Positions 12,525 to 35,777 of a stretch of DNA of 64,000 nucleotides are shown piece by piece. The stretch comes from Oscillatoria sp. CS-180. GTDB lineage: Bacteria > Cyanobacteriota > Cyanobacteriia > Phormidesmidales > Phormidesmidaceae. Positions within the stretch are counted from its first letter, which is position 1, and each line of letters opens with the position of its first letter. Under the pieces are notes generated by a model that was given only the letters and a program-made list of their open reading frames with translations, was not told the DNA's origin and searched no databases. The DNA is taken from assembly GCF_028330965.1 (NCBI RefSeq), contig NZ_JAQMUB010000029.1:1-64000 (forward strand), given 5' to 3'. Made by a program: the position numbers and the translations under genes.

Positions 12525-14144
12525 TCAACCTTCGAGCACAAATTCCATAAGACGTCCTTGAGGACTACCAAATCGAATTTGCGTTCCCGGTTTCAAGATA
12601 ATTTCCTGTCGATGAACGTGTTGCCACCCTTCTGCTTTTTGACAAAACGTGCCAAAGCGGGAGTCATCTCGGAGGTAATAGCAGCCGTCTACCTGACCAA
12701 TTGCCACGTTTTTGTTGGGTTGTCGGCAAAAAATTTCGGCATGACTGCCCGATACCCAGGGTTCTGGAATAACGACATCGTTTTCTGGACGACGCCCTAC
12801 TCGTAGAACGCCGCTATACAGATACCAGACTAAATGAGGATCATCGACAACGCGGATGGCTGCAACCGGACCAGACGTGCAGGACTCTCCAGGCAGTCGG
12901 GTAATGTCGATAGTTTGCTCTGAGAGGAGCTGACCATCAAAATTGGGATGTAGGTAGAGGACCGGTAGAGTCCAAGCGGGCTGGTTGAATTTATAAAGGG
13001 TTAGCAACTGTTGACGAGCAATGGCGACAGCTCGATCAACGGGATGGCGCTCTACTAGAGACTGGGAAAAGCTTTGGATGAAACTCAAAGCTTCCTCATC
13101 AGCGATTGAATCTCGCATGGCAATCACCGCTGGGACACCGTGATGCAATAAAACTTCAGCTAAGCTACTACGAGAAATCGTCCGCTGTCCTTGCTGGTCG
13201 GGTTGTGCCCCCCAACAAGTGTTGAAAACAGCTAATTTGACTCGGTTATGAGTCAACAGCTGAGCCAACTCTGTGCCATTAAGCGTAGACTGAGCCTGCA
13301 GAAAAATGAGTCCGCCATCAGGTGCAGGCACTCCATGACCAGCATAGAAAAAGACATTGTATTGGCCATTTTCTAATGCTTTGATTAGATCAGCGGCCCG
13401 CGGTCGAACTAAAACGTCAACCTGACAAGACACTGCTGTCGGTCGTTTGCTGAGACCAGAAGTGACTTCGCCCAGCAGAATCCGTCTTAGGGTATTGGCT
13501 TCATTTTCAAGTTGCAGAGTTTCACTGGCGCGATCCGCATTTGGATCGTTGCTAGGAACATCTGGTTCTCCTAGCACCAGCAAAATCTTCAAGCTCTCGT
13601 TTAGGCTAATGTCAGCGAGGGGATCAACGTCACTTGTCGTTCTGCTAAAGCGAATGTGCTCACTTAAGGACATTGCCTGACGACCTGGCTGAGACTGCAT
13701 GATTTCCCAGGGCAAGCTGATGAGAGCAGGGTCACGAATATCGAGACAAAGACAGAGAGGATTACCTTGCCCCATTGCAATTCCTAAACTTTGGTCGAGG
13801 CTACTCTTGATAGCGCCATCAAATAGCCATTGCCACAGCTTCACACCTAAGGTTTGCATCAAACGTCCGGTGTAGCCTCGGCCTGAAGAGGTGTCTTTAC
13901 CAAGGTCTGCTGTCACAAACTGAGGAATGTAGGCAGAAGGAACGTGGGGTACTTGAGGTAGACCCCGTAAGGAGAAGAGCTGAAGCCAACTTTGCCAAAG
14001 TTGATTAAGTTCGTCTGTCCACGGGCGATCATGATGAACGTATCCCCCCGGATGAGGAGCCTTTACGACCCAAATTGCATAATGAGGGGTCGCGGATGAG
14101 GATAACCGCTCAATGGCAATACGCAAGCGAATAGGCTCTGGCAT
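12525..14144 (-). CDS. CHAT (caspase-like) protease domain fused to a C-terminal FHA domain
   Basis: The protein is about 539 residues. The middle (about 180-405) is a CHAT domain of the caspase/separase clan, with the catalytic His in FYAGHG (about 270) and Cys in FNTCWG (about 310). Residues 440-530 are a forkhead-associated fold, which normally binds phosphothreonine: LRVGRRPENDVVI, VSGSHAEI and YYLRDDSRFGTF. The FHA Arg and Ser-x-His are kept, but the Asn usual before Gly-Thr is Phe here, so binding may be altered. There is no signal peptide. The next gene upstream on the same strand is a PP2C phosphatase, so the pair could read and erase Thr phosphorylation and couple it to proteolysis. 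That link is inference. A TTG directly precedes the chosen ATG. Confidence 0.85.
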   Translation of the reverse strand: MPEPIRLRIAIERLSSSATPHYAIWVVKAPHPGGYVHHDRPWTDELNQLWQSWLQLFSLRGLPQVPHVPSAYIPQFVTADLGKDTSSGRGYTGRLMQTLGVKLWQWLFDGAIKSSLDQSLGIAMGQGNPLCLCLDIRDPALISLPWEIMQSQPGRQAMSLSEHIRFSRTTSDVDPLADISLNESLKILLVLGEPDVPSNDPNADRASETLQLENEANTLRRILLGEVTSGLSKRPTAVSCQVDVLVRPRAADLIKALENGQYNVFFYAGHGVPAPDGGLIFLQAQSTLNGTELAQLLTHNRVKLAVFNTCWGAQPDQQGQRTISRSSLAEVLLHHGVPAVIAMRDSIADEEALSFIQSFSQSLVERHPVDRAVAIARQQLLTLYKFNQPAWTLPVLYLHPNFDGQLLSEQTIDITRLPGESCTSGPVAAIRVVDDPHLVWYLYSGVLRVGRRPENDVVIPEPWVSGSHAEIFCRQPNKNVAIGQVDGCYYLRDDSRFGTFCQKAEGWQHVHRQEIILKPGTQIRFGSPQGRLMEFVLEG

Positions 14145-14247
14145 CAAAGAACGCTGCTGTCACAAACAATTGCGAAGGATCAAAACACCCTTAAACTTTA
14201 GCGATTTAAGCACGAAAGTAGGGGAATCTGGAACACCTGAGATCAAA

Positions 14248-16500
14248 TCAATCAGTACATAATCCCTGTTGTGCATTGGATGTACCCAATAGTCGCTCAG
14301 CGAAGACAGGAAGCTCTGTTTCTAATAGCCATCCTTGGTCGCCAGACTGCACGAAAGGAATCTGACGATCGCCCTCTAGCTCAGCTGACTCATTCGATCC
14401 TAAAGACGATGTCGGTGGATCGGATGGGCGCATAGCTTCGGCATCAGTGACTAAGGTAGAGCAAACTTCTAAACGCACCCATGTCTGATTGTCAGGCGTT
14501 CTTTGTCGGCTGATAACTTGCACAATACTACCAATCGGTAGCAATCGCTCAGGTAAATCTACTGCGACTGGGGGATCTGGCACGGGAGGATTATCGACAA
14601 CGAGTAAGGTTGCCGCTGCTGAAGGATCCGTCAGCGGCTTGATTTGCAGATAGTCACCAATGGCCAAACTATCAGTATTTTCTGATGCAGAGGAATTAGG
14701 AGGCGGTGCCACTGGGGAAAGGGTTTCGCCTTCGTCGGAATCGTCGGAATCGGTGACGATAGGCCGTTGTAACCACTGCCATCCCAGCGCACCCGCAATA
14801 CCCAATAGCCCAACTATCAAAACGCTGCTGAGCAGCAGAGGCAGCGGTCGCCACTGCTTGGATGCGGATTGGGGCGTTAGATTCTGAGTAATAGGTACCG
14901 CCACGGTTTGGGTCGCAGACTGACTGCCCCTATTTTCCGGTGGAACTGCTGTCAGCAAATCAGCAACTGTTGCTGAAATAGGCGTTTCCTGTGCAGACTT
15001 GTGAGGTGCTAGCTTCAAGACGCCTACTGTGACGTTGTCATGACCATTTTGGCTATTAGCAAGATCAATCAGACGCTTGACGCCCGTTGCGACATCGCGA
15101 TCGCCACTCAAGATCGGTTTTAGTTCTGACACCCAAGTCCGTTCCAACAGATCGTGATCGCTCAATCCATCTGAGCACAAAACAATTAAGCTATCAGTTG
15201 CAATCGGATAGAGCTTGACCGTGGGATGCAGATGTTCGGCTTTAGCCATACCTAATGCCTGCACCAAAGCGCCAGATCCCGGATTCTGTAGAGCATCCTG
15301 GTACAGTTCTAGCCCTAAGCGCATTTCGCGAACGGCTACATCATCATCCAGCGTAATTTGGCGACAGCTATAGGGCCGCACTCGATAGGCACGGCTGTCG
15401 CCCAGGTGAGCGACGTACAGCCGCGTTCCATAAACGAGGGCAATGACAATGGTTGTCCCCATCCGGTCTCGGTCTTGTCGCTGGTCAGCATCATTACGAG
15501 CCGAAATCACTTGATTGGCTGCAAAAATGGCCTGTTTCAAAGATGCCACAATGTCGACATGGGACAGGTTGGGCGTACGGGTGAGATGTTTTAATTGCTG
15601 TGTCACTTCGGCGATCGCGCTTCGCGAAGCAACATCCCCACCTTGATGTCCACCCACCCCATCACACACGACAACCAATGGAGCAGGCACAGTGTCAACC
15701 ATTGTTGGAGTAACAGAGCGCTGTTCTGAAAATCCGCTGCTGGGAAAACAAGCATCTTCATTGCGTTGACGGGTCGGACCTTGATCGGACGCTGTTGCGA
15801 ACTCTACAGAAACAGCCTGTTTTGCAGAGAGCTGTTCGATAGCTCGGATCAGAGAATAGGCCAGTCCTTTAGCGTTGCCTTCGCCTGACTGAAGACGCTG
15901 AATCACTTGACTCAGATAATCCTTCACTGGAACGGCAGCGGTTTCTACCAAAGCTTGCCAGTGCTGTCCTAGGTTCACCAAAGTTGGTGAGTCCGGCTTG
16001 GCCATAAGCGTCAACAGCCGCAGATCTTCTCCGTCAACTCGAAGATTTTGCCAATCCAGCAAACTCTGAGCAACTTGGTTATCAATGCAGGGTTGCCAAA
16101 GCTTAGCAATTCTCCAGAGCCAGGTGAGTTGATGAAGCGCAGTTGCTTTTTCCCAAACCGCTAAAAGCGTTGGCAACAATGTCGGAGTCTGCCCTTTTCC
16201 AGCAACCTCGTGTAAAGGCACTTCCTCAAGCAATAGCAAGGGAGTTTGATCGCTAGGATGCGGAACTTGAGTAAACGGTCGTGGAATCGCGACTGAAAAC
16301 GCAGACAGAGCCAGATACGGTTCTGCTAATGAAGGCACTGCCTCTAGCTGTGTCGGTGGCTCTTGAGGACATGTGTCTTGAATCAGAGGGAATTGAACAA
16401 CCTGATATCGCCCAGCCAGCAAGGTGCCTGGAGGTAGAGGAGAGGCTGCTCCTTGAACCCATAGATATCGATGAATCGGCGGCAGTTGCAAACTAGGCAT
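14248..16500 (-). CDS. Membrane-anchored PP2C-type Ser/Thr protein phosphatase
   Basis: The protein is about 750 residues. The N-terminal 240 residues resemble a degenerate kinase-like regulatory region (LLAGRYQVVQF, LLLLEEV). The PP2C domain spans about 240-505 with metal-binding acids in RNEDA, VCDGVGGHQGG, LCSDGLSD and GHDNVTV, plus GDSRAYR. One membrane helix follows (about 560-580, LLLSSVLIVGLLGIAGALGW), and then a beta-rich exported tail resembling an SH3b module (LPIGSIVQVISR, QGWLLETELPVFAE). It should therefore remove phosphates in the cytoplasm under control of an outside domain. It is upstream of the CHAT-FHA gene. Starts at 16521 (TTG), 16518 and 16500 are possible. I chose the last because the extra codons contain a HIP1-like site rather than conserved sequence. 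Confidence 0.9.
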   Translation of the reverse strand: MPSLQLPPIHRYLWVQGAASPLPPGTLLAGRYQVVQFPLIQDTCPQEPPTQLEAVPSLAEPYLALSAFSVAIPRPFTQVPHPSDQTPLLLLEEVPLHEVAGKGQTPTLLPTLLAVWEKATALHQLTWLWRIAKLWQPCIDNQVAQSLLDWQNLRVDGEDLRLLTLMAKPDSPTLVNLGQHWQALVETAAVPVKDYLSQVIQRLQSGEGNAKGLAYSLIRAIEQLSAKQAVSVEFATASDQGPTRQRNEDACFPSSGFSEQRSVTPTMVDTVPAPLVVVCDGVGGHQGGDVASRSAIAEVTQQLKHLTRTPNLSHVDIVASLKQAIFAANQVISARNDADQRQDRDRMGTTIVIALVYGTRLYVAHLGDSRAYRVRPYSCRQITLDDDVAVREMRLGLELYQDALQNPGSGALVQALGMAKAEHLHPTVKLYPIATDSLIVLCSDGLSDHDLLERTWVSELKPILSGDRDVATGVKRLIDLANSQNGHDNVTVGVLKLAPHKSAQETPISATVADLLTAVPPENRGSQSATQTVAVPITQNLTPQSASKQWRPLPLLLSSVLIVGLLGIAGALGWQWLQRPIVTDSDDSDEGETLSPVAPPPNSSASENTDSLAIGDYLQIKPLTDPSAAATLLVVDNPPVPDPPVAVDLPERLLPIGSIVQVISRQRTPDNQTWVRLEVCSTLVTDAEAMRPSDPPTSSLGSNESAELEGDRQIPFVQSGDQGWLLETELPVFAERLLGTSNAQQGLCTD

Positions 16501-16587
16501 GCAGGGCGATCGCACCATCAATGGATCAATAATAACAATTCAGAAAACCGAGAAAGACGCTTAAAGGCTGCCATTACCTGGGTGAAA

Positions 16588-17187: not shown

Positions 17188-18435
17188 ATGACTCGATCGC
17201 TGAACACCATTTTAGAGCGCGCTCTAGACGGCGCTGACCTAACTCCTGATGAAGGGGTGCACTTACTGAAGCAAGCGGACGAAGGAGCGATCGCCGCGAT
17301 TAGCTCTGTTGCTAATACATTAAGGCAGCGACAAGTTGGCGACACCGTCACCTATGTCGTCAACCGCAACCTGAATTTCACTAACATTTGCGAGCAACAC
17401 TGTAGTTTTTGTGCCTTTCGCCGCGATGACGGCGATGAGGGTGCCTTCTGGCTTGATTGGGGAGCCATGCTGGAGAAAGCTGCTGAAGCGGTTGCTGAGG
17501 GAGCAAGTGAAATTTGCATGCAGGGGGGGTTGAACCCAACCGCTAAGATTGACGGCAGCAGTCTACGCTACTATCTACGCCTAGTCGAGAATATCAAAGC
17601 AGCCTTTCCTGACCTGCATCTCCATGCCTTTTCGCCTCAAGAGGTGCAGTTTATCGCGCGGGAAGATGGGCTGAGCTACACGGCAGTAATTGCTGCACTC
17701 CAAGCGGCTGGCGTAGGGTCGCTACCAGGAACCGCAGCTGAAGTCCTTGATGATCGTGTCCGCAGGGTACTGTGTCCTGAAAAGATCAATACCGCTACCT
17801 GGCTGGAGATTGTGGGTCTTGCTCACCAGCAGGGTTTACCCACAACCAGCACCCTGCTTTGTGGGCACATCGAAACACCTGAACAGCAGATTCAGCACAT
17901 GGAGCATTTACGGCAGTTGCAGCAGCAAGCGATCGCCCAACAGCGACCCGCTCGCATCACCGAATTCATTCTGCTGCCGTTTGTCGGTCAAGAGGCTCCT
18001 AAACCTCTGCAACGACGTGTCGGTCGAGATCAGCCTAGTTTGCAAGACACGCTGCATTTAACAGCCGTTGCGCGTATTTACTTGGGTAACTGGATTCCCA
18101 ATCATCAGCCGAGCTGGGTCAAGTTAGGCCTAGCCGGAGCCGTTGAAGCGCTGCAGTGGGGTTGTAATGACATTGGTGGCACGCTGATGGAAGAGCATAT
18201 TACAACCATGGCAGGTGCCCAAGGGGGGACCTGTATGACCGTAAATGAATTACGAGGGGCGATCGCGTCTCTGGGACGCCCAGCTCAGCAACGAGATACC
18301 CTCTACCGTTCACTATCCGCACCCTCCTCCGCATCCACGCTTTCTTCGACAGCTTCAGCCTCCTCCACAGCTTCGGCATCTACCGGATATGTTGCCCCTG
18401 CCCGGCAGTCTCTGAGCCAGAGGCGTACTGCTTGA
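17188..18435 (+). CDS. cofH: FO synthase subunit 2 (radical SAM CofH)
   Basis: The protein is 415 residues from the ATG at 17188. A GTG at 17104 would add 28 unconserved residues. CofH joins 5-amino-6-ribitylaminouracil to the tyrosine-derived hydroxybenzyl group on the way to the deazaflavin FO, the chromophore of some photolyases and the core of F420. It has the CEQHCSFC [4Fe-4S] motif, [28 protein letters not shown] and a C-terminal [10 protein letters not shown]. The conserved part ends near DTLYRSL. The last 40 residues are Ser/Ala/Thr-rich and are encoded opposite the end of the neighbouring gene. The partner cofG is not in the window. Confidence 0.93.
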
Positions 18436-19025
18436 CCCACAATGCCGTCACTGCTTTCACGGGGAGGTGTGGGAGGTCGAATCGAGGGTTCGTCTACTGC
18501 TAGCCGGGAAAACAACAGTGCCATGCGCCATCCGTCTTCGTCTGGAGTGACGAATAACCAGTAATAGTTCTCTAGATTGACAAAATCAGTCTCGTTGTAG
18601 TGCCGTTCCAAGGTTGTAAAAAACACTTGCTGGACCGCAGCTTCAGTTAGGACTCCGGCTTCACTAAACGTGAGAGGAGAAATCTCAAGCGGTTCGAATT
18701 CGGCACGGCCCGCGATCAAAACAGTGCCAAATCCAGCATCATTCTCTTGAATACCCAAATTGCGACGTGCAACCCGGTTAGCATACCCTGGCAGATCTCG
18801 TAAAAGTCCCTGCGTCATCAGCTCTAGGTCTTCAGGGCAGGACGTTTCAGGACGAAGAAAAGGAGTCTCCAACTCGGGAAGTTCATTCTGAGTTTCCTCC
18901 ACAGCATCAGACGTGGAATCAGCATCAGAGAAGGACGCGATCGCGCTCTTTGCTGTTCCTATCAGCAGAACACTCATCAAAACAGGCCCCACGAACGATG
19001 CCCCCTTGAAACCGCTTATAGTCAT
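18303..19025 (-). CDS. Secreted conserved hypothetical protein with acidic C-terminus
   Basis: The protein is 240 residues from the ATG at 19025; a TTG precedes it. An N-terminal hydrophobic signal ([19 protein letters not shown]) indicates export. The central region ([24 protein letters not shown], written here as two adjoining blocks [11 protein letters not shown] and [11 protein letters not shown]) is mixed alpha/beta with [19 protein letters not shown], and it has two Cys (TSCPEDLEL and RDCRAG) that could pair outside the cell. The tail is a low-complexity Glu/Ala/Val run. No family name is known to me. The last 133 bp lie antiparallel to the end of cofH. Confidence 0.65.
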
Positions 19026-19372
19026 CAAATCAACTCTCCCCCCAGCCTTTCATTTTCTGACTACGTAGAGCAAACCTCAGCGCTGTCCCGACTCTACGCC
19101 GTGAAAGATTGCAATGTTATGACTCGAAATTCGATATCCCTAGTATCCTTATCGGAAAATCCTTTTAATCTCTTTCAGCATGACGATATGCCGTTCTTGA
19201 TGGCCTCAAACTTTAGACAGCGCCGCCGCAAACAGCATACCTACAATTGGCTTAGACAGCTTAGAGAGGGAGACCTTAACCTATTTTCCTTACAAATGGG
19301 TGACGGGTTCTTAGGGAAGTATCGTATGACAACCACAAGGCCTTTAGGGCTGCTGGTGAGGAGAAATTGAAC
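19026..19372. other. Divergent promoter region
   Basis: This 347-bp gap lies between the starts of the secreted protein and the large fusion gene, and it must hold both promoters. A good ribosome binding site, GAGGAG at 19358-19363, precedes the ATG at 19373. An 89-codon frame at 19101-19370 is open but has no family features and starts far from a binding site. Confidence 0.45.
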
Positions 19373-22300
19373 ATGGTCAAGGCACGGAATCGCTCATTAT
19401 TCGTTCTATTGCTGACGGTTGCCTGTCTAGCACCTCCTCTGATGGCAGCAAATCCCCAAGAGGATCGATTGTTGGCACAAGTGGACCCTGACAATCCAGA
19501 TGCTGTTGAGGCACCAACTCAAGACGCCGTTGAGGAACCCGCTCCAGAATCACCAGCTGAAACGGCTCCCCAGGAAGAGGTTTTGCCCCTTCCTGAGACA
19601 ACGCCCCCTGAGCTATCGCCAACCTTTGAGTTACCCAATGAACTCCCTGATGGGACAACCGTAAGCATCACCGGATCATCCAGTATGGAGGTGATCACAC
19701 GCAGTTTAATCCAGCAGTTTCAGCAGGCTTATCCTAATGCCGATGTAACGTTTACCGAGCAATCTTCCGAGGCCGCATTGGCAGACCTACAAACCGGCTC
19801 TGCTGAGCTGGTCGCTACGGGGCGCTCTCTGACAGATGAGCAACTGGCTCAGGGTCTTACGGAAGTTGATGTCAGTCGGGAAAAAATTGCGGTCATTGTG
19901 GGGGCGAGTAATCCCTATGAAGGACAGCTGGAAGCCGACGATTTTGTCCGAATTTTTCGAGGCGAAATTACGAACTGGAGTGAGTTGGGAGGGCCAGACG
20001 TGCCCATTCGCTTCATTGATCGTCCAGAAACGAGTGACACCCGTGCAGCTTTGGGCGATTACGAAATTTTTGGAGGGGACCTGACAACCGGCGAGAATAT
20101 CGAACAGGCACCCAGTGATAGCACTTCTGAGATAGTCGAGGCTTTGGGAGACAACGGCATCAGCTACGCGATCGCCAGCCAAGTCATCAATCAAGACAAC
20201 GTCCGGGTGCTGTCAATGCACAACACGCTGCCTGACGATCCTCGCTATCCCTATTCTCAACCCCGCAACTACATCTATCAGTCAACTGAAACGCTGCCGG
20301 TAGGGGTAGAAGCCTTTCTGGCTTTTGCGACTAATGCCCAGGGACAAGAGGCCGTAGCTCAGGCGAAGGCAGCCGAAGCTGCCGATGTTGCCGCTGCTGA
20401 TCTGCCCGATACTGTCTCTGTGGTTCGCCCTGATGGCCAGGGATTCGTAACGGGCGATCGCACAGGCAATCTCAACTTTTGGAGTGCCGATGGCACTGCG
20501 GCTGGCGACCCTGTTTCTGCTCACACTGGACCTGTCACAGCGCTAGCTGTCAGCTCTGATGGAAGACGCCTCATTAGCGGCGGTGCAGACGGCACGATTC
20601 GGCTATGGGATAGCACAGACAATGCCATTGGCGATCCTATCAATGGTGGCAATGGTCCTATCACCAGTCTGATTGCCCAGCCTGACGGCAGTTTTATCAG
20701 CGCCAGTGCGGATGGGACCCTGCAGCGCTGGGACGAAATGGGCAATACAGAGGGGGAACCGATCACTGGGCATGAAGATGCCGTGCGAGATATGGCACTC
20801 ACTGCCGATGACGCAACCCTCATCACAGCCTCCAAAGACGGCACAATTCGCCGCTGGAATGTGGCAGACGGATCTGCTACGGGAGAACCTTTGACAGGAC
20901 ATCAGGGAGCAGTACAAGCACTGGCAGTTAAGCCTGATGGTACCTTCTTCTCGGGCGGTGCAGATGCTACAGTCCGCCGTTGGGATTCTGCGGGAACCCA
21001 GATAGGAGAGCCAGTCCAAGTTGCAGGTCCAGTGAATGCGATCGCGGCGAATGCAGACGGCACTAACATTGCAGTTGGCGATGAAACAGGAACCCTACAG
21101 CTGCTCTCTGGTGAGGGAGTGCCCGTAGGTCAAGCCATTACAGATGTCGGTGCGCCTATTGACGACTTAGCGTTTACCCCCGATGGTCAGCTCATCGTGA
21201 GCGCTGGGGAGACGCCACAAATTCGAGATAGTGGGGGACAACTCATCGCGACGCCCACGTCGGAAGCTGAAAGTGACACAGAAGCTGATGGCATCGAATC
21301 TGTCTTGCTAGACCTTTGGCAGCGCGTTAGCCAACAACCGCTTCGGTTTTTGTGGATTATCCCAGTTCTCGTTTTAGGATTATTGCTCTTGCAGTTGCTG
21401 CGGAATTTTCAGCAAGACGAAGAAGATTTGGACGAGGAAGAAGCGGTTGATGTGCCGCCTGAAGGACGGTTTGATCCGGTTCCTAGTACCGAAAGTCAAG
21501 AGTTCGGCTTGACTAGTCCAGACGCTGACGATGAGGCTGTCACAGGCTTCATTTCAGATGATGTCGCTGTTCCACTTGACTCCTCGTTGACGAAAGCTAA
21601 GCAAACTTTGGCAGAGGGGATCAGCCTGGGCAGTGCCGGACGCCACCAAGAGTCACTAGACCGATTCAATAAGGCAATTGAACTAGCTGATATGGAGCGA
21701 TTGAAAGCAGCAGCAGCAGGGGCCTCTCTAGTAGGGGCCGGAGTCGTGATTGCTAGGGGATTGGCGCGACGCGGCACGGCGCTCACTCATCTAGGCCGTT
21801 TAGAAGAGGGGTTGAAGAGTATCAACCGGGCCTTAGAAATGGATGCCAATGATGTTGCTGCCTGGATTGGTAAAGGAAATGTCTTGACCGAATTGGGGCA
21901 ATTTGATGAAGCTGTATTTTCTTTTGATAAGGCGATCGAGTTAAATCCCAACATTGCCGCTGCTTGGCAAGGAAAAGGAATTGCCCTTCAAAAGATAGGC
22001 AGAGATACAGAAGCCCGGCGTTGCTTAGCTAAAGCCGATGCTTTGGGGGGCATTGACGACGACATTCCAATGAATTTAGAAACGCCAGTGAGTGCGCCTG
22101 TGCCCATTACTCAACAGCCAGACAATGACATTACACCAACCCCCGTTGTCCCTCAGCCAACGCCCGATGTCTCACCGTCAAACACTGATTTTTCCGCTGA
22201 TTCGGGTTTATCTGATTTCGATGAGTCTGACTTTATGACGTCACCAGTGGACTTTACAGGCGATGATTTTACGAGCGCTGATTTCGCAGACGACGACTTC

Positions 22301-23095
22301 ACGAATAGCGAAGAACAAGCGTTTGTGTCCTCAGCGGGCGATCGCGGCATGGAAGCCGACTACTCTAGCGATTCAGAGACCTCTCCTAATCAACCTCGAA
22401 TTGTGCCTGATTCACCGGATGAGGTGGAAACAATTGGCATCATCACTCCACAACCGCAACCCCCGGTCGACTCAGATACTGAGTTACCGTCTGATTTGTT
22501 AGCTGCCGTTGAAGATTTGCCAACCTATTCAGAACAGGAAATACCTGCAAGATCTGGGCCGGAGAATGATGCCGTTCAAGCTCCAGCCTCATTCTCAGAC
22601 TATGGACAGACAGAAGATACCGATATCCCTGCGGAGGTGCGAGAGACCCTAGAATATCTGCCATCAGAACCAGACACTCCAGATCCGAATGCTCCGATGA
22701 CAGAGCCAATTCCAGTCCCCCCTGATGTTGAAGCCATTTTGGCTGGAGAGTCGGAGATTCCCAGTACGGAAGAGACTCCCACGGCTATAAATGATCCAAT
22801 GGCCGCTTTCCTTGGGAATGATCCGACGACCTCCATGAGACCTACTGCTCGACCGTCGGCAGACATTGAAAATCCTGAGGAATCGCCAGAACCCCCTTCG
22901 GTATCGATTCCCGAAGCCGCTGTGGAACCTGATCCACCAGAAGAAATGACCGACCCAGCGTTGGAAGGATTACCTCCAGAAGTTATAGAAGCTCTTAAAG
23001 GAATTCCAGAAGATTCGCCTGATAGCTTTGGGTTTTCAGGAGGTTCGTCAACACCGCCACCGCCACCCAATAACCCTCGGTTGAGGGATTCTTAG
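19373..23095 (+). CDS. Fusion of PstS-like binding domain, seven-bladed WD40 propeller, membrane helix, TPRs and acidic tail
   Basis: The protein is 1240 residues. A signal peptide (SLFVLLLTVACLAPPLMAA) is followed by a Pro/Glu-rich spacer. Next is a PstS-type solute-binding domain at about 95-335 (VSITGSSSMEVITRS, LVATGRSLTDEQL, FVRIFRGEITNW). Then come seven WD40 repeats at about 345-625 (GGADGTIRLWD, ASKDGTIRRWN and others), which is a full propeller. One membrane helix follows (about 660-680, FLWIIPVLVLGLLLLQLL), then a TPR block at about 740-900 (AWIGKGNVLTELGQFDEAV), and about 340 residues of acidic, proline-rich tail. Topology suggests the binding domain and propeller lie outside and the TPRs and tail inside, as in a receptor. 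The ligand may be phosphate or another oxyanion, but this is inference. GAGGAG 10 bases upstream fixes the ATG; a TTG two codons earlier is not needed. Confidence 0.88.
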   Translation: MVKARNRSLFVLLLTVACLAPPLMAANPQEDRLLAQVDPDNPDAVEAPTQDAVEEPAPESPAETAPQEEVLPLPETTPPELSPTFELPNELPDGTTVSITGSSSMEVITRSLIQQFQQAYPNADVTFTEQSSEAALADLQTGSAELVATGRSLTDEQLAQGLTEVDVSREKIAVIVGASNPYEGQLEADDFVRIFRGEITNWSELGGPDVPIRFIDRPETSDTRAALGDYEIFGGDLTTGENIEQAPSDSTSEIVEALGDNGISYAIASQVINQDNVRVLSMHNTLPDDPRYPYSQPRNYIYQSTETLPVGVEAFLAFATNAQGQEAVAQAKAAEAADVAAADLPDTVSVVRPDGQGFVTGDRTGNLNFWSADGTAAGDPVSAHTGPVTALAVSSDGRRLISGGADGTIRLWDSTDNAIGDPINGGNGPITSLIAQPDGSFISASADGTLQRWDEMGNTEGEPITGHEDAVRDMALTADDATLITASKDGTIRRWNVADGSATGEPLTGHQGAVQALAVKPDGTFFSGGADATVRRWDSAGTQIGEPVQVAGPVNAIAANADGTNIAVGDETGTLQLLSGEGVPVGQAITDVGAPIDDLAFTPDGQLIVSAGETPQIRDSGGQLIATPTSEAESDTEADGIESVLLDLWQRVSQQPLRFLWIIPVLVLGLLLLQLLRNFQQDEEDLDEEEAVDVPPEGRFDPVPSTESQEFGLTSPDADDEAVTGFISDDVAVPLDSSLTKAKQTLAEGISLGSAGRHQESLDRFNKAIELADMERLKAAAAGASLVGAGVVIARGLARRGTALTHLGRLEEGLKSINRALEMDANDVAAWIGKGNVLTELGQFDEAVFSFDKAIELNPNIAAAWQGKGIALQKIGRDTEARRCLAKADALGGIDDDIPMNLETPVSAPVPITQQPDNDITPTPVVPQPTPDVSPSNTDFSADSGLSDFDESDFMTSPVDFTGDDFTSADFADDDFTNSEEQAFVSSAGDRGMEADYSSDSETSPNQPRIVPDSPDEVETIGIITPQPQPPVDSDTELPSDLLAAVEDLPTYSEQEIPARSGPENDAVQAPASFSDYGQTEDTDIPAEVRETLEYLPSEPDTPDPNAPMTEPIPVPPDVEAILAGESEIPSTEETPTAINDPMAAFLGNDPTTSMRPTARPSADIENPEESPEPPSVSIPEAAVEPDPPEEMTDPALEGLPPEVIEALKGIPEDSPDSFGFSGGSSTPPPPPNNPRLRDS

Positions 23096-23118
23096 CCTAG
23101 TTAGGATTTGTGTAGAAT

Positions 23119-23178
23119 ACAGCTTGAGTCATTAAGGCTAGTGCACCCAATCGCATCCGAATGCTGATCGTGTACTGG
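23119..23178 (+). repeat. Dispersed repeat family 1, copy B (5' half)
   Basis: AAGGCTAGTGCACCC followed by AATCGCATCCGAATGCTGA matches the left half of copies C and E. The 3' stem block is missing. It fills the gap between the convergent ends of the fusion gene and hpsJ. Confidence 0.55.
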
Positions 23179-23958
23179 CTAAGTGTTTCCCATACTCATG
23201 AGTCTGCGTAGGCCTTGCCAACCGATAGCAATATAAGCGATCGCCATCAACAAGCTACCAATCGCAACACGAATGGCTGACTTGAAGGCCCTTTGCCTGA
23301 TCTGCTGACGAGCATCTTCACGCCGAGTCCCAATTTCAGTCTCAATCTGCTCCCGAGCCTCTCCAGCCCGCTGTGTCAAAAACTCATCCAAGCCAGCAGG
23401 GTTATCTCTGAACTGCTCAATTTCGGCGGGTAGCTGTCCCGCCTGAATCGCTTGTTGCAAAAGTGCATCATCTTCAAACAGACGTTGTAATTGACTCTGC
23501 TGCTGCGACAGTTCACCACTTAGACGCTGCTCCAACTGACTGGAAGCCTCCGTAGCCTCTCGTTCAACCTGGGCAAGTTCCCCTTGGGCCGCAGTTCGGA
23601 CATTGTTGACGTGAAGGAAAGGCAGTATTAAAAAAAGAAGACCTAAAATACTGGCGATTAAACACGTCCAGAATCTTAAATCCGCGAGTAGGCTAGTCGG
23701 TCTTCCCCCTTTTCCTGAGCTGCGGTCGACCCAAAAGCCCGTCAACAATAGAGCAATACCGACTAGCGGTACAATACCCCGATCAACGATCTGCGTAAAC
23801 GTCCTCAACTGCCAATCCGTATTTAAGAAGTCAGGCGGTATTAATAGGATCAAGAAATCCAGTAAAACAGACAAAATGGTCACAACGCCCACTAGCTTTA
23901 ATGCCGTTGCAGCTAGTGGAGAAACCGCAGAATTTGCAAAAGGTTTTTCAGCAGTCAT
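23179..23958 (-). CDS. hpsJ: HpsJ-family membrane protein
   Basis: The protein is 259 residues with four hydrophobic segments: about 18-42 (ALKLVGVVTILSVLLDFLIL), 58-76, 91-112 and 228-247. A long Gln/Glu-rich coiled coil lies between the third and fourth (SSQLEQRLSGELSQQQSQL), followed by RAGEAREQIETEIGTRRED. This layout matches the HpsJ family, which in filamentous cyanobacteria is needed for hormogonium polysaccharide secretion and gliding motility. The assignment is from overall architecture and remembered family sequence, so it is moderately sure. The gene is alone, flanked on both sides by copies of repeat family 1 in the same orientation. Confidence 0.7.
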   Translation of the reverse strand: MTAEKPFANSAVSPLAATALKLVGVVTILSVLLDFLILLIPPDFLNTDWQLRTFTQIVDRGIVPLVGIALLLTGFWVDRSSGKGGRPTSLLADLRFWTCLIASILGLLFLILPFLHVNNVRTAAQGELAQVEREATEASSQLEQRLSGELSQQQSQLQRLFEDDALLQQAIQAGQLPAEIEQFRDNPAGLDEFLTQRAGEAREQIETEIGTRREDARQQIRQRAFKSAIRVAIGSLLMAIAYIAIGWQGLRRLMSMGNT

Positions 23959-33479: not shown

Positions 33480-34331
33480 TTAGGGGCCGGTGGTGCTGGT
33501 TCGAGCGTATTCGTCGCTGTTAGGTCGGACGTGGTGAGGTTCAACGTGGGGAATCAGGGAATGGGGTTTTTCTAATCCGTGGTTTTCCATCAGAGTTTGA
33601 TTGCCCATCACTTCGACAGGATCGCCGTCAGCAATAACGCAGCCTTCATCTAACAGAATGATGCGATCGCACACTTCTAGTAAAAATTCGAGGTCATGGG
33701 AGGCTAAGACGAGAGTTTCATCAGACTGCTGCAAAAAGCGAATTAGACGACGGCGGGTACGAAGGTCAAGGCTAGCGGTAGGTTCATCATACAGAAGGAT
33801 GCGCGGACACATGGCGAGGAGTCCCGCGATCGCAACCATCTGTTTTTCTCCGCCAGATAGGTGATGGGGCGGACGGTCTTCTAGAAATTGAGTACCCGTT
33901 AGTTCCAAAGCTGCTTCAACTCGTTTTGCAACTTCTGTTTCAGATAGACCTAGGTTTTGGGGGCCGAACGCAACGTCATCGCGAACGGATGGCGAGAAGA
34001 GTTGATCTTCAGGATCTTGAAATAAAAATCCCACTTCAGGACGAAATTCACCCGGCTGTACAGGGCGATCAAATAAACAAATGTCGCCTGTTTGGGGCTT
34101 TAACATGCCACACATCAGCATAAAAAGGGTTGTTTTGCCACAGCCGTTGTGACCAATGAGTCCAACGCGCTCCCCTTCTCGAACAGAGAAGCTTACTCCC
34201 TGCAAAATGTCGGGATTATTGGGATAGGCAAAACCTACATTTTCTAAGGAGATAGCTACAGGTCTGGCTAACAAATCTTTGGTAGTCGGAATACCAATCG
34301 TTGGGGGGGTGCTGGATGAAAACTGGTTCAT
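33480..34331 (-). CDS. cbiO: ECF-type cobalt/nickel transporter ATP-binding protein
   Basis: The protein is 283 residues from the ATG at 34331, which shares ATGA with the cbiQ stop; upstream in-frame starts are rejected for this reason. It is the energising ATPase of the ECF importer: Walker A GHNGCGKTT, Q-loop FLFQDPEDQL, signature LSGGEKQ, Walker B ILLYDEPTASLD and the switch His in LASHDLEFL. The FQDPEDQLF sequence is characteristic of CbiO/EcfA. The Pro/Ser-rich first 20 residues and the tail HVRPNSDEYA look dispensable. Confidence 0.93.
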   Translation of the reverse strand: MNQFSSSTPPTIGIPTTKDLLARPVAISLENVGFAYPNNPDILQGVSFSVREGERVGLIGHNGCGKTTLFMLMCGMLKPQTGDICLFDRPVQPGEFRPEVGFLFQDPEDQLFSPSVRDDVAFGPQNLGLSETEVAKRVEAALELTGTQFLEDRPPHHLSGGEKQMVAIAGLLAMCPRILLYDEPTASLDLRTRRRLIRFLQQSDETLVLASHDLEFLLEVCDRIILLDEGCVIADGDPVEVMGNQTLMENHGLEKPHSLIPHVEPHHVRPNSDEYARTSTTGP

Positions 34332-35116
34332 AGATAGGTGAGAATCCACTCTCCAATAACAAAGCTGAGGGTTGCTGACAAGATAGCGGCAGTCGTGAGC
34401 CATGACTGCCGGTAGGTAGACCGAGACACAGATGCTCCCAAGGTAATGTCGCTTTGACCGTACCCTCGTAAGCACATTGCTTTGTAGACCCGATGGGATC
34501 GCTCATAGCTTCTTAGTAACAAGCTGCCAAAGAGAGCAGCCAGCCAGCTCCACTGCCGTTTCACGGTTTGACGAAGTAAACCGTAGCCCCTGAGTCGCAT
34601 TGCCTGACGCATACTTGACAATTGCGCTGCAACATCGAACAGGTAGCGATAGGTTAGCAAGGCCATATCGGTCAGTAGCGACGGCAATCCTAGCGATCGC
34701 ATCGCTTTGAGCATATCGAGGAAAGGAGTGGTCCCCAACAAAATAAAACCTGTTGTTAAGATTGCGAGGAATCTACCTGCAATCAAAGCTGCCGTCTGGA
34801 GACCTTCTAGGCGTAGGGTCAACCAATACCCTTGCCAAAGAACGGTCTCTCCTGAAATCCAAGGCAATAGACCCACCATCGCTACGATAAAGATGCCGGG
34901 ATAGGTCAACCGTTTCAGCAAATACTGCCAGGGCAGTTGTGAGTAGCGATATAACAGCCCAACAACAATGAGCACCCAAGGAATTAGGGCAAGATGGCTG
35001 ACGAGGGAAATGGCAAACATTAGCCCTAGCAAGCTGAGCAGCTTAGGTCGAACAGCCCAGCAATGGATAGGAGAATTGCCGGCAACAAAAATGTCAGCGC
35101 GAAGTGCGATCGCCAT
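34328..35116 (-). CDS. cbiQ: ECF-type cobalt/nickel transporter transmembrane T component
   Basis: The protein is 262 residues. It has five or so membrane helices and the two cytoplasmic coupling motifs AMRLRG and AMCLRG in the last third, which bind the ATPase grooves. It couples CbiO to the substrate-binding CbiM. It starts 16 bp after cbiM and overlaps cbiO by four bases. Confidence 0.92.
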   Translation of the reverse strand: MAIALRADIFVAGNSPIHCWAVRPKLLSLLGLMFAISLVSHLALIPWVLIVVGLLYRYSQLPWQYLLKRLTYPGIFIVAMVGLLPWISGETVLWQGYWLTLRLEGLQTAALIAGRFLAILTTGFILLGTTPFLDMLKAMRSLGLPSLLTDMALLTYRYLFDVAAQLSSMRQAMRLRGYGLLRQTVKRQWSWLAALFGSLLLRSYERSHRVYKAMCLRGYGQSDITLGASVSRSTYRQSWLTTAAILSATLSFVIGEWILTYL

Positions 35117-35132
35117 ACCGTGTCAGTTTCCG

Positions 35133-35777
35133 TTAGTTTTTCAGTAGCTCTGGCTTCACTCGTAACAAAAAGAAGGACAGCAACATGGTGAAAAGTCCTT
35201 CGAGCAAGATGAGAGGGATATGGGCAATCATCAGTGCGGTCAAAAACCCCTGCTCAGTGGCCTGATCAAGCGTAGAGGGAGTTGTGAAAACAATGAGACT
35301 GAAGAAAATGAAGGCTGACAGCCCCACGCCAATAGCTCCCGCTAGGAAGCTAAACAGACCGAGTGACCATCGCCGTTGAGCGGCTTTGCCTAAGCGGCGT
35401 CTGAATCGAAAGCACTGAGCGGCAACCAGCGCTGGAAGTCCTATCAGGGTCGCGTTGACTCCCAGCGTTGTTAGTCCTCCGTGCCCCAGAAGAATAGCTT
35501 GTAGCAATAGACCGATGAGAATAGCAGGCCAGGCATACCATCCCAAAACTGTCCCTAGTAGCCCATTGAGGACTAAATGAACGCTTGCTGGTGGTACCGG
35601 TAAGTGAATGGAAGAGCCCACAAAAAAGGCTGCTGACAGTAGCGCAGCGCGGGGAACCTCTTCCTGGGGATCAGAGGTTTTGTTAATCCGCCGGAGCACG
35701 ACCCAGGTAACGCCGCCGGCGATCGCATAACCTGCCACACTCACTTGAGCTGGAAGAATACCGTCTGGAACATGCAC
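35133..35777 (-). CDS. cbiM: ECF-type cobalt/nickel transporter substrate-binding permease
   Basis: The protein is 214 residues, starting at GTG 35777 to give MHVPDGILP. Residue His2, directly after Met, is the essential metal ligand of CbiM/NikM, so this start is required. Other hallmarks are SSIHLPVPPASVHL, LGTVLGWYAWPAI and LLGHGGLTTLG. It binds Co2+ or Ni2+ through the N-terminal ATCUN-like loop and histidines. The start codon shares its G with the stop of the preceding gene (TAGTG). Confidence 0.93.
   Translation of the reverse strand: MHVPDGILPAQVSVAGYAIAGGVTWVVLRRINKTSDPQEEVPRAALLSAAFFVGSSIHLPVPPASVHLVLNGLLGTVLGWYAWPAILIGLLLQAILLGHGGLTTLGVNATLIGLPALVAAQCFRFRRRLGKAAQRRWSLGLFSFLAGAIGVGLSAFIFFSLIVFTTPSTLDQATEQGFLTALMIAHIPLILLEGLFTMLLSFFLLRVKPELLKN

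Follow-up and report, generated by a model that had tools for sequence, protein, structure and literature searches.

What does a phosphate-binding-protein fold do in a chain that also carries a WD40 propeller, a membrane helix and TPRs? The question is raised by a gene of the cyanobacterium Oscillatoria sp. CS-180, whose genome comprises 6.5 Mb in 102 contigs. The gene lies on a 64,000-nucleotide stretch of contig NZ_JAQMUB010000029.1, which as a whole we call the window, and encodes a protein of 1240 residues, the window protein, with a PstS-like periplasmic-binding protein (PBP) domain in its N-terminal part. Domains of the binding-protein type occur in transporters and in certain receptor kinases. 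A preliminary description, made from the letters of the DNA alone, had proposed an undescribed class of transmembrane sensor or scaffold, possibly for phosphate. Our analysis makes it reasonably probable that the window protein is a transmembrane receptor-scaffold and places its PBP domain in a wider class of membrane-anchored fusions; the proposal of phosphate fared less well.

Domain architecture and topology of the window protein

The anatomy proposed earlier for this single chain (signal peptide, PBP domain, seven WD40 blades, membrane helix, TPRs and acidic tail) was borne out by Pfam searches, hydropathy, AlphaFold2 and Foldseek, which agreed with one another. Three Pfam families matched above their curated cut-offs, namely PBP_like_2 (PF12849; residues 93-321, 4.7e-32), WD40 (PF00400; 3e-38) and TPR_1 (PF00515; 7.9e-18, 63.9 bits against a cut-off of 27.8). 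The Pfam, sequence and fold matches of the PBP region were all strong, and chance similarity does not account for it. No protein kinase domain was found in the window protein among the 25 best of 54 Pfam families or among 20 NCBIfam families. A GAGGAG run resembling a ribosome-binding site (19358-19363) precedes the ATG at 19373, and the start of the protein resembles those of close orthologs (M-V...NRSL). Residues 16-19 form a lipobox-like TVAC, the Cys of which varies and is missing in some orthologs. No promoter or terminator was detected when 18900-23400 was scanned.

An AlphaFold2 model of residues 80-645 reached a mean predicted local distance difference test score (pLDDT) of 91.8 and a predicted template modeling score (pTM) of 0.78. 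It contained the PBP fold, then a helix of ~22 residues and then a propeller, predicted to consist of seven closed, four-stranded blades, with pLDDT values of 87-97 in ten-residue blocks. Foldseek matched the binding part to Sll0540 (9l8j) with a TM-score of 0.89 by target length, and the propeller part to the designed seven-bladed propeller 7bie with a TM-score of 0.93. A second model, of residues 642-1240 and built from four sequences only, had a pLDDT of 55.7. It contained a membrane helix at residues 662-681, eight well-scored TPR helices in about four hairpins (pLDDT 78-96 in blocks of ten, model residues 101-250) and a disordered tail, in which the blocks mostly scored 30-48 and reached 60-70 at the last copy of a repeated motif.

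The Kyte-Doolittle profile peaked at residues 8-26 (2.15), 657-675 (2.29) and 779-797 (1.60). The third peak lies within the TPR region and was rejected as a second membrane helix because it is polar in more distant orthologs. A hydrophobic segment (>=2.2) between the propeller and the TPRs was kept in 26/26 distinct orthologs, in keeping with the predicted membrane insertion. Since the chain begins with an export signal and has this one conserved segment, the PBP domain and the propeller would lie on the exported side and the TPRs and the tail in the cytoplasm, the topology that the preliminary description had given.

Distribution of orthologs

Matches to the window protein at E <= 1e-90 were present in 34 of the 63 genomes of the order, one per matching genome, some being partial at contig edges. 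Among the frames collected, 27 (26 distinct) reached a stop codon with PBP, WD40 and TPR parts, as called with profiles for which 13 of these proteins served as input. Three members of the ortholog set came from named assemblies, and one (L015; L and G numbers are our handles for loci and genomes) is cut at its 5' end. At least three named full-length orthologs, from Leptolyngbya and Nodosilinea assemblies, were among the matches listed. At E <= 1e-3 matches were found in 59/59 relatives, a count that says little because many of the listed matches were WD40 or PBP domains alone. When PBP domains were placed in a tree, 18 of 19 ortholog PBPs formed one clade (support 98/88), with L031 outside it and without a firm place.

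Binding pocket and the phosphate question

The phosphate contacts of Escherichia coli PstS, as given in an excerpt of PMC10846223, are T10, F11, S38, D56, R135, S139, G140 and T141. The alignment showed that the window protein keeps the equivalents of R135, S139 and T141 (R217, S221 and T223), carries D222 at the position of G140 and Gly at that of D56, and does not possess the full set of eight contacts. The three kept positions were conserved in 19/19, 19/19 and 18/19 orthologs and in 48/52, 51/52 and 48/52 other fusions, respectively, and the next Arg of the anion loop is also nearly invariant. At the G140 position, Gly occurred in 13/13 stand-alone proteins, Asp (44) or Glu (8) in 52/52 other fusions, and Asp (11) or Ser (8) in 19/19 orthologs. 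The D56 position held Ser in 13/13 stand-alone proteins and Gly or Ala in 47/52 fusions. Judged by these alignments, the pocket is constrained but rewired and is not a PstS pocket. The acid at position 140 could make up for the loss of the one at position 56, with HPO4 still being taken, or could mark another ligand. The E. coli yardstick is imperfect for cyanobacterial proteins because a PstS-family protein of the same genome (L009), despite its S-G-T loop, has Pro in place of R135 and Ser in place of D56; the row of another (L010) was cut short in the pocket alignment.

The window PBP failed the PstS family test of NCBIfam (TIGR02136), scoring 77.5 bits against a cut-off of 206.6; among the other copies in the same genome, two passed (305 and 303.8) and two failed (145.7 and 144.7). 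We also scanned for PHO-box-like sites with a PHO-box pattern, allowing up to 3 mismatches. No match was found between 19029 and 19372, and the 31 matches over the window were no excess over a shuffle mean of 35.97. This test is weak because the pst cluster of the same genome, with one 2-mismatch site just ahead of pstS, shows no overall excess either (4 matches, mean 4.94). Pho control of the window gene was rejected on this weak test. The suggestion that the ligand is phosphate is thus weakened by the sub-cut-off PstS score, the replaced loop Gly and the lack of an upstream site; support for phosphate goes no further than the fold.

The C-terminal tail

The tail of 335 residues contains 74 D+E, 9 K+R and 58 P. 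A motif, [LIV]P-x-[DEA]-[LVIM]-x3-[LIVM]-x2-[LIVM][PS], was present in one to four copies in the tails of 26/26 distinct orthologs and occurred nowhere else in those chains. Its last copy is near-invariant in 25 of the 26 distinct orthologs, L017 being without it. The motif was found in 0/43 of the other anchored fusions described below. It may dock a partner.

Membrane-anchored PBP fusions in cyanobacteria

Across the phylum, PBP matches at E <= 1e-30 were present in 91 of 386 genomes, in frames that were mostly either ~300 residues long or far longer. We selected 43 long fusions for length and spread, not at random, one of them (L008) from the same genome as the window protein. They carried DUF4912 (32 fusions), TPR (3), WD40 (2) and phosphorylase (1). 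A hydrophobic segment (>=1.6) followed the PBP domain in 40/43 of them, the exceptions being L178, L194 and L196; in L171, L195 and L200 the segment comes more than 200 residues on.

In a tree of 87 PBPs, rooted by midpoint and with E. coli PstS on a very long branch, 52 fusions and 19 orthologs formed a clade of 71 rows (support 98/98). Outside it were 13 stand-alone, Sll0540-like proteins, two PstS-family proteins of the same genome and E. coli PstS. Before alignment and tree building we had excluded hits to the PBP with E-values above 1e-40 or lengths below 200 residues, the loci L001-L006 and L123-L165, and identical rows; the tree also omits two distant PBPs. In clade members other than the orthologs, the C-terminal part is DUF4912, TPR, coiled coil or glycogen phosphorylase. 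The window protein has the features of the clade, in that its PBP groups with the fusions and is followed by the hydrophobic segment at 657-675 and then by a further part, the localization of which is predicted. The anchored PBP class is real and wider than one protein, and it appears to be undescribed: no description of a PstS-WD40-TPR protein or of the anchored clade was found among the top papers listed from one library of open-licence literature. The claim of an undescribed class thus fits this search, and its scope has to be enlarged from one protein to many fusions. In excerpts of two papers (PMC8400943 and PMC7848895), PstS, WD40, TPR and cyanobacteria all occur, in separate contexts.

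In the family of genome G058, among the long frames fetched, 10 of 36 genomes had a frame holding both a PBP match and a glycogen phosphorylase of near full length; in G462 the PBP match spans 122 residues only. Two motifs of the enzyme were compared, the lysine taken to hold pyridoxal phosphate (PLP) and the KR pair before HEYKRQ. In the fused phosphorylases the PLP-lysine position was occupied by Ile (8), Ala (1) or Met (1) and by Lys in 0/10 genomes; the Lys of the KR pair was lost in 10/10 and its Arg in 8/10. Six separate phosphorylases from five genomes kept the lysine and the KR pair (6/6). Two further phosphorylases (L208 and L213) had no PBP match and were also without the lysine. Within 200 residues after the PBP, 8/10 chains had a hydrophobic window of >=1.6, L255 (1.15) and L267 (1.38) falling below this value, and Pfam found TPRs in both phosphorylase chains scanned (L188 and L256). 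Misjoining of contigs is unlikely for G058 and G487 because these are single-contig genomes. The PBP-phosphorylase chains are apparently membrane-anchored pseudo-phosphorylases. The exchanged C-terminal parts of the clade (DUF4912, TPR and lysine-less phosphorylase) look like binding modules.

Several other chains of these genomes were observed. In the same PBP clade, L190:606-5609 carries a PBP domain, a hydrophobic segment, a very long coiled coil and helix-hairpin-helix repeats of the DNA-binding type. Two anchored PBPs (L181:2511-5696 and L202:2185-5811, minus strands) have, by eye and Pfam, about three WD40 blades before the hydrophobic segment; such an incomplete propeller perhaps must pair with others. 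Tandem pairs of anchored PBPs were present in L197 and L201, and among the six PBP matches of G058 two lie ~5 kb apart. A relationship of DUF4912 to the glycogen-binding CBM48 was rejected (hhalign probability 0.2%), in a weak test with 17 rows on the CBM48 side.

Genes around the window gene and its orthologs

Nine neighbors of the window gene were scanned. They included CofH-type, PNPOx, polyketide-cyclase-type, SRAP, PP2C, CHAT-FHA and MoxR-like genes and two without a match; the immediate neighbors (18303-19028 and 23179-23958) had no Pfam match. No ABC transporter, permease or pst gene was found among the nine. The nearest transporter genes seen are a CbiM-CbiQ-ABC set of the cobalt/nickel type at 33480-35777, ~10 kb downstream on the opposite strand. 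For the nine genes scanned, the earlier statement that no ABC transporter is encoded beside the gene stands. Homologs of the ABC and CbiQ genes were also seen at L044:1-1454, ~6 kb upstream of an ortholog. A pstS-pstC-pstA-pstB cluster of the same genome (L010) lies away from the window gene.

In the same-genus genomes G001, G003, G004 and G005, a CofH-type gene, NdhM and a homolog of 18303-19028 lie beside the ortholog (4/4), and PP2C and CHAT-FHA genes lie near it in three of the four (G003, G004 and G005). The homolog of 18303-19028 adjoins the ortholog in G012 too. In the window itself, the CHAT-FHA gene and the gene for the PP2C-type phosphatase adjoin each other at 12525-16521. In G012, G018 and G011, from three genera, a gene for a solute-binding lipoprotein lies directly downstream of the ortholog, the one copy scanned (that of G018) being SBP_bac_5. 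The L225 lipoprotein shares 66.8 and 67.4% identity with its two counterparts; the downstream gene in the window is a different one. At the six loci examined from a Nodosilinea-type clade (L043-L045 and L226-L228), the next gene upstream of the ortholog encodes a WD40 protein, and is a kinase-WD40 gene by Pfam in L045 only. Elsewhere in the genome of the window protein (L012:2939-5598), a gene for a Ser/Thr kinase with a 4-Cys prefix and one for a PstS-like PBP are probably expressed together, because the first ends at the base where the second starts.

Table 1. Coordinates of the window gene, of the parts of its product and of related genes at other loci
Feature	Coordinates	Strand	Basis
Coding sequence, 1240 aa + stop	19373..23095	+	Open frame, ATG 19373 to stop ending 23095
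Export signal, residues 1-26, Ala-x-Ala type end	19373..19450	+	Hydrophobic peak; signal type by eye
PstS-like PBP domain, residues 93-321	19649..20335	+	PF12849; likeness to Sll0540 in sequence and fold
Anion-loop motif R217-P-E-T-S221-D222-T223-R224	20021..20044	+	Corresponds to PstS R-x3-S-G-T with Gly to Asp
Long helix between PBP and propeller, residues 322-343	20336..20401	+	Model helix 243-264
Seven-bladed WD40 propeller, residues ~348-626	20414..21250	+	PF00400; model; Foldseek
Membrane helix (predicted), residues 657-675	21341..21397	+	Kyte-Doolittle 2.29; model helix 662-681; orthologs
TPR region, eight helices, residues 738-891	21584..22045	+	PF00515; model pLDDT
Acidic, Pro-rich, disordered tail, residues 906-1240	22088..23092	+	Composition; low pLDDT
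Docking-type tail motif (putative), copy 1, LPSDLLAAVEDLP, residues 1038-1050	22484..22522	+	Match to motif expression
Docking-type tail motif (putative), copy 2, IPAEVRETLEYLP, residues 1085-1097	22625..22663	+	Match to motif expression
Docking-type tail motif (putative), copy 3 and conserved end, LPPEVIEALKGIPEDSPDSFG, residues 1200-1220	22970..23032	+	Ortholog conservation; weak model helix
Solute-binding lipoprotein genes	L219:4694-6535; L225:10733-12583; L223:10457-12376		SBP_bac_5 (L225)
Chains with PBP and near full-length glycogen phosphorylase	L206 (same frame as L188:1265-5737); L207; L255; L256; L262-L267	- (L188)	

Discussion

We consider a transmembrane receptor-scaffold a reasonably probable identity for the window protein. 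The exported PBP domain and propeller would interact with a small ligand, with a partner protein or with both, a single helix would cross the membrane, and the TPR hairpins and the tail motif would hold cytoplasmic partners. Closure of the PBP driven by a ligand might, via the rigid helix and the propeller, alter clustering or docking inside. The PBP would thus bind the ligand, and the binding would be signaled inward. The earlier reading of the window protein as a sensor or scaffold, and not as part of a transporter, is supported, and the anchored clade as a whole looks like a sensing or scaffolding system.

A number of results weigh against a ligand-driven receptor with a docking tail. Gly or Ala stands in place of D56 in 19/19 orthologs, and the S38 position is Ser or Thr in 43/52 fusions but in just 5/19 orthologs; with both equivalents mostly changed, ligand binding may be weak or absent in the family of the window protein. 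Shuffled tails contained the tail motif at a mean of at most 0.01 per tail, and they overstate its rarity because we drew up the expression once the tails were known; the near-invariant last copy is the better evidence for the motif. The strict motif was not found outside the ortholog family in the collected open frames of >=150 residues (820,192 residues, redundant), and it was not seen docked on the TPRs in the second model, which rests on 4 sequences and has a low pLDDT in this part. A fixed operon partner was rejected, as the neighborhood varies between clades. The exported side could be the periplasm or the thylakoid lumen, the plasma and thylakoid membranes being indistinguishable from sequence. 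To regard DUF4912, a domain without known function, as a binding module is a guess.

The changed S38 and D56 equivalents, together with the large protein-interaction surface and the long disordered tail with its repeated motif, are what would be seen if the PBP had lost ligand binding and become a structural envelope module, the protein acting as a constitutive membrane scaffold (for envelope, thylakoid, pili or stores) through contacts of propeller, TPRs and tail. We regard this as unlikely, though worth serious attention: the Arg, Ser and Thr of the loop and the Arg that follows are near-invariant, beyond what a vestigial pocket needs, although this conservation may also have structural causes. 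It is distinctly less likely that the window protein is an anchored accessory binding protein from which a Pst-type permease, encoded elsewhere in the genome, receives phosphate or some other solute, with the propeller and TPRs only positioning it. In favor of this are the pst cluster of the same genome and the solute-binding lipoprotein genes directly downstream of the orthologs of G012, G018 and G011. However, neither a permease nor an ABC ATPase is among the nine neighbors, and the nearest set is of the cobalt/nickel type and ~10 kb away. The Gly of the PstS loop is Asp or Ser in 19/19 orthologs, the PstS family score is 77.5 against 206.6, a propeller of 280 residues follows the PBP, and the relatives have very different C-terminal parts.

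WD40 and PBP matches are abundant in these genomes and the C-terminal parts of the clade are freely exchanged, so the chain might have arisen by domain shuffling within a single lineage, as an orphan by-product without a selected function. The single match in each of the 34 of 63 genomes that match at E <= 1e-90, the grouping of 18 of 19 PBPs in one clade (98/88) and the conservation of the tail at the motif level largely refute this explanation, which we consider very improbable.

Returning to the receptor-scaffold, we tentatively extend it to the clade. Possibly, though with some doubt, these cyanobacterial proteins are transmembrane receptors without a kinase, based on a PstS pocket that has been rewired and whose loop Gly has mostly given way to an acidic residue, and relay a nutrient or solute signal from the exported side to exchangeable non-catalytic modules inside (TPRs with docking motifs, DUF4912 or lysine-less pseudo-glycogen-phosphorylase). 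If so, the pseudo-phosphorylase members would link the carbon store to a signal from outside. The PBP fold would then form the outside part of a large set of cyanobacterial membrane proteins in which no active enzymatic output was found, offering a place to study how information passes from outside to an inside scaffold without a kinase. The changed pocket position poses a sharp, testable question about the ligand.

Comparison with known systems

The window PBP and PstS (TIGR02136; E. coli PstS) share their fold and three residues of the anion loop (Arg, Ser and Thr). The window PBP differs in scoring below the family cut-off, in its changed Gly140, in having no adjoining pst genes and in being anchored and fused. 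Its closest solved relative is Sll0540 of Synechocystis PCC 6803 (PDB 9l8j, titled putative phosphate binding protein), with 40% identity (1.3e-48) and a TM-score of 0.89. The anion loop is S-G-T in 13/13 stand-alone proteins of the Sll0540 type, whereas it is S-D-T in the window protein and has Asp, Glu or Ser at the middle position in the anchored relatives. The solved chain of Sll0540 has 242 residues and, unlike the window protein, no propeller or TPR part.

The other anchored PBP fusions belong to the same clade as the window protein, but a full propeller was seen in 0/43 of them, WD40 being present in 2/43 with about three blades. The kinase-WD40 protein encoded beside the Nodosilinea-type orthologs also has a WD40 propeller; it is not an exported receptor of the same kind as the window protein, because no hydrophobic segment was found in L043-L045. 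Receptor Ser/Thr kinases of the PknD type are kinases with an exported sensor domain. One chain combining such parts with a PBP, L061:7158-9128 (minus strand, Hassallia byssoidea), consists of a protein kinase, a hydrophobic segment and PBP_like_2. Like the window protein, it has one hydrophobic segment between the PBP and the output part; the window protein is without a kinase domain, and in L061 the order is reversed, with the kinase first and the PBP last.

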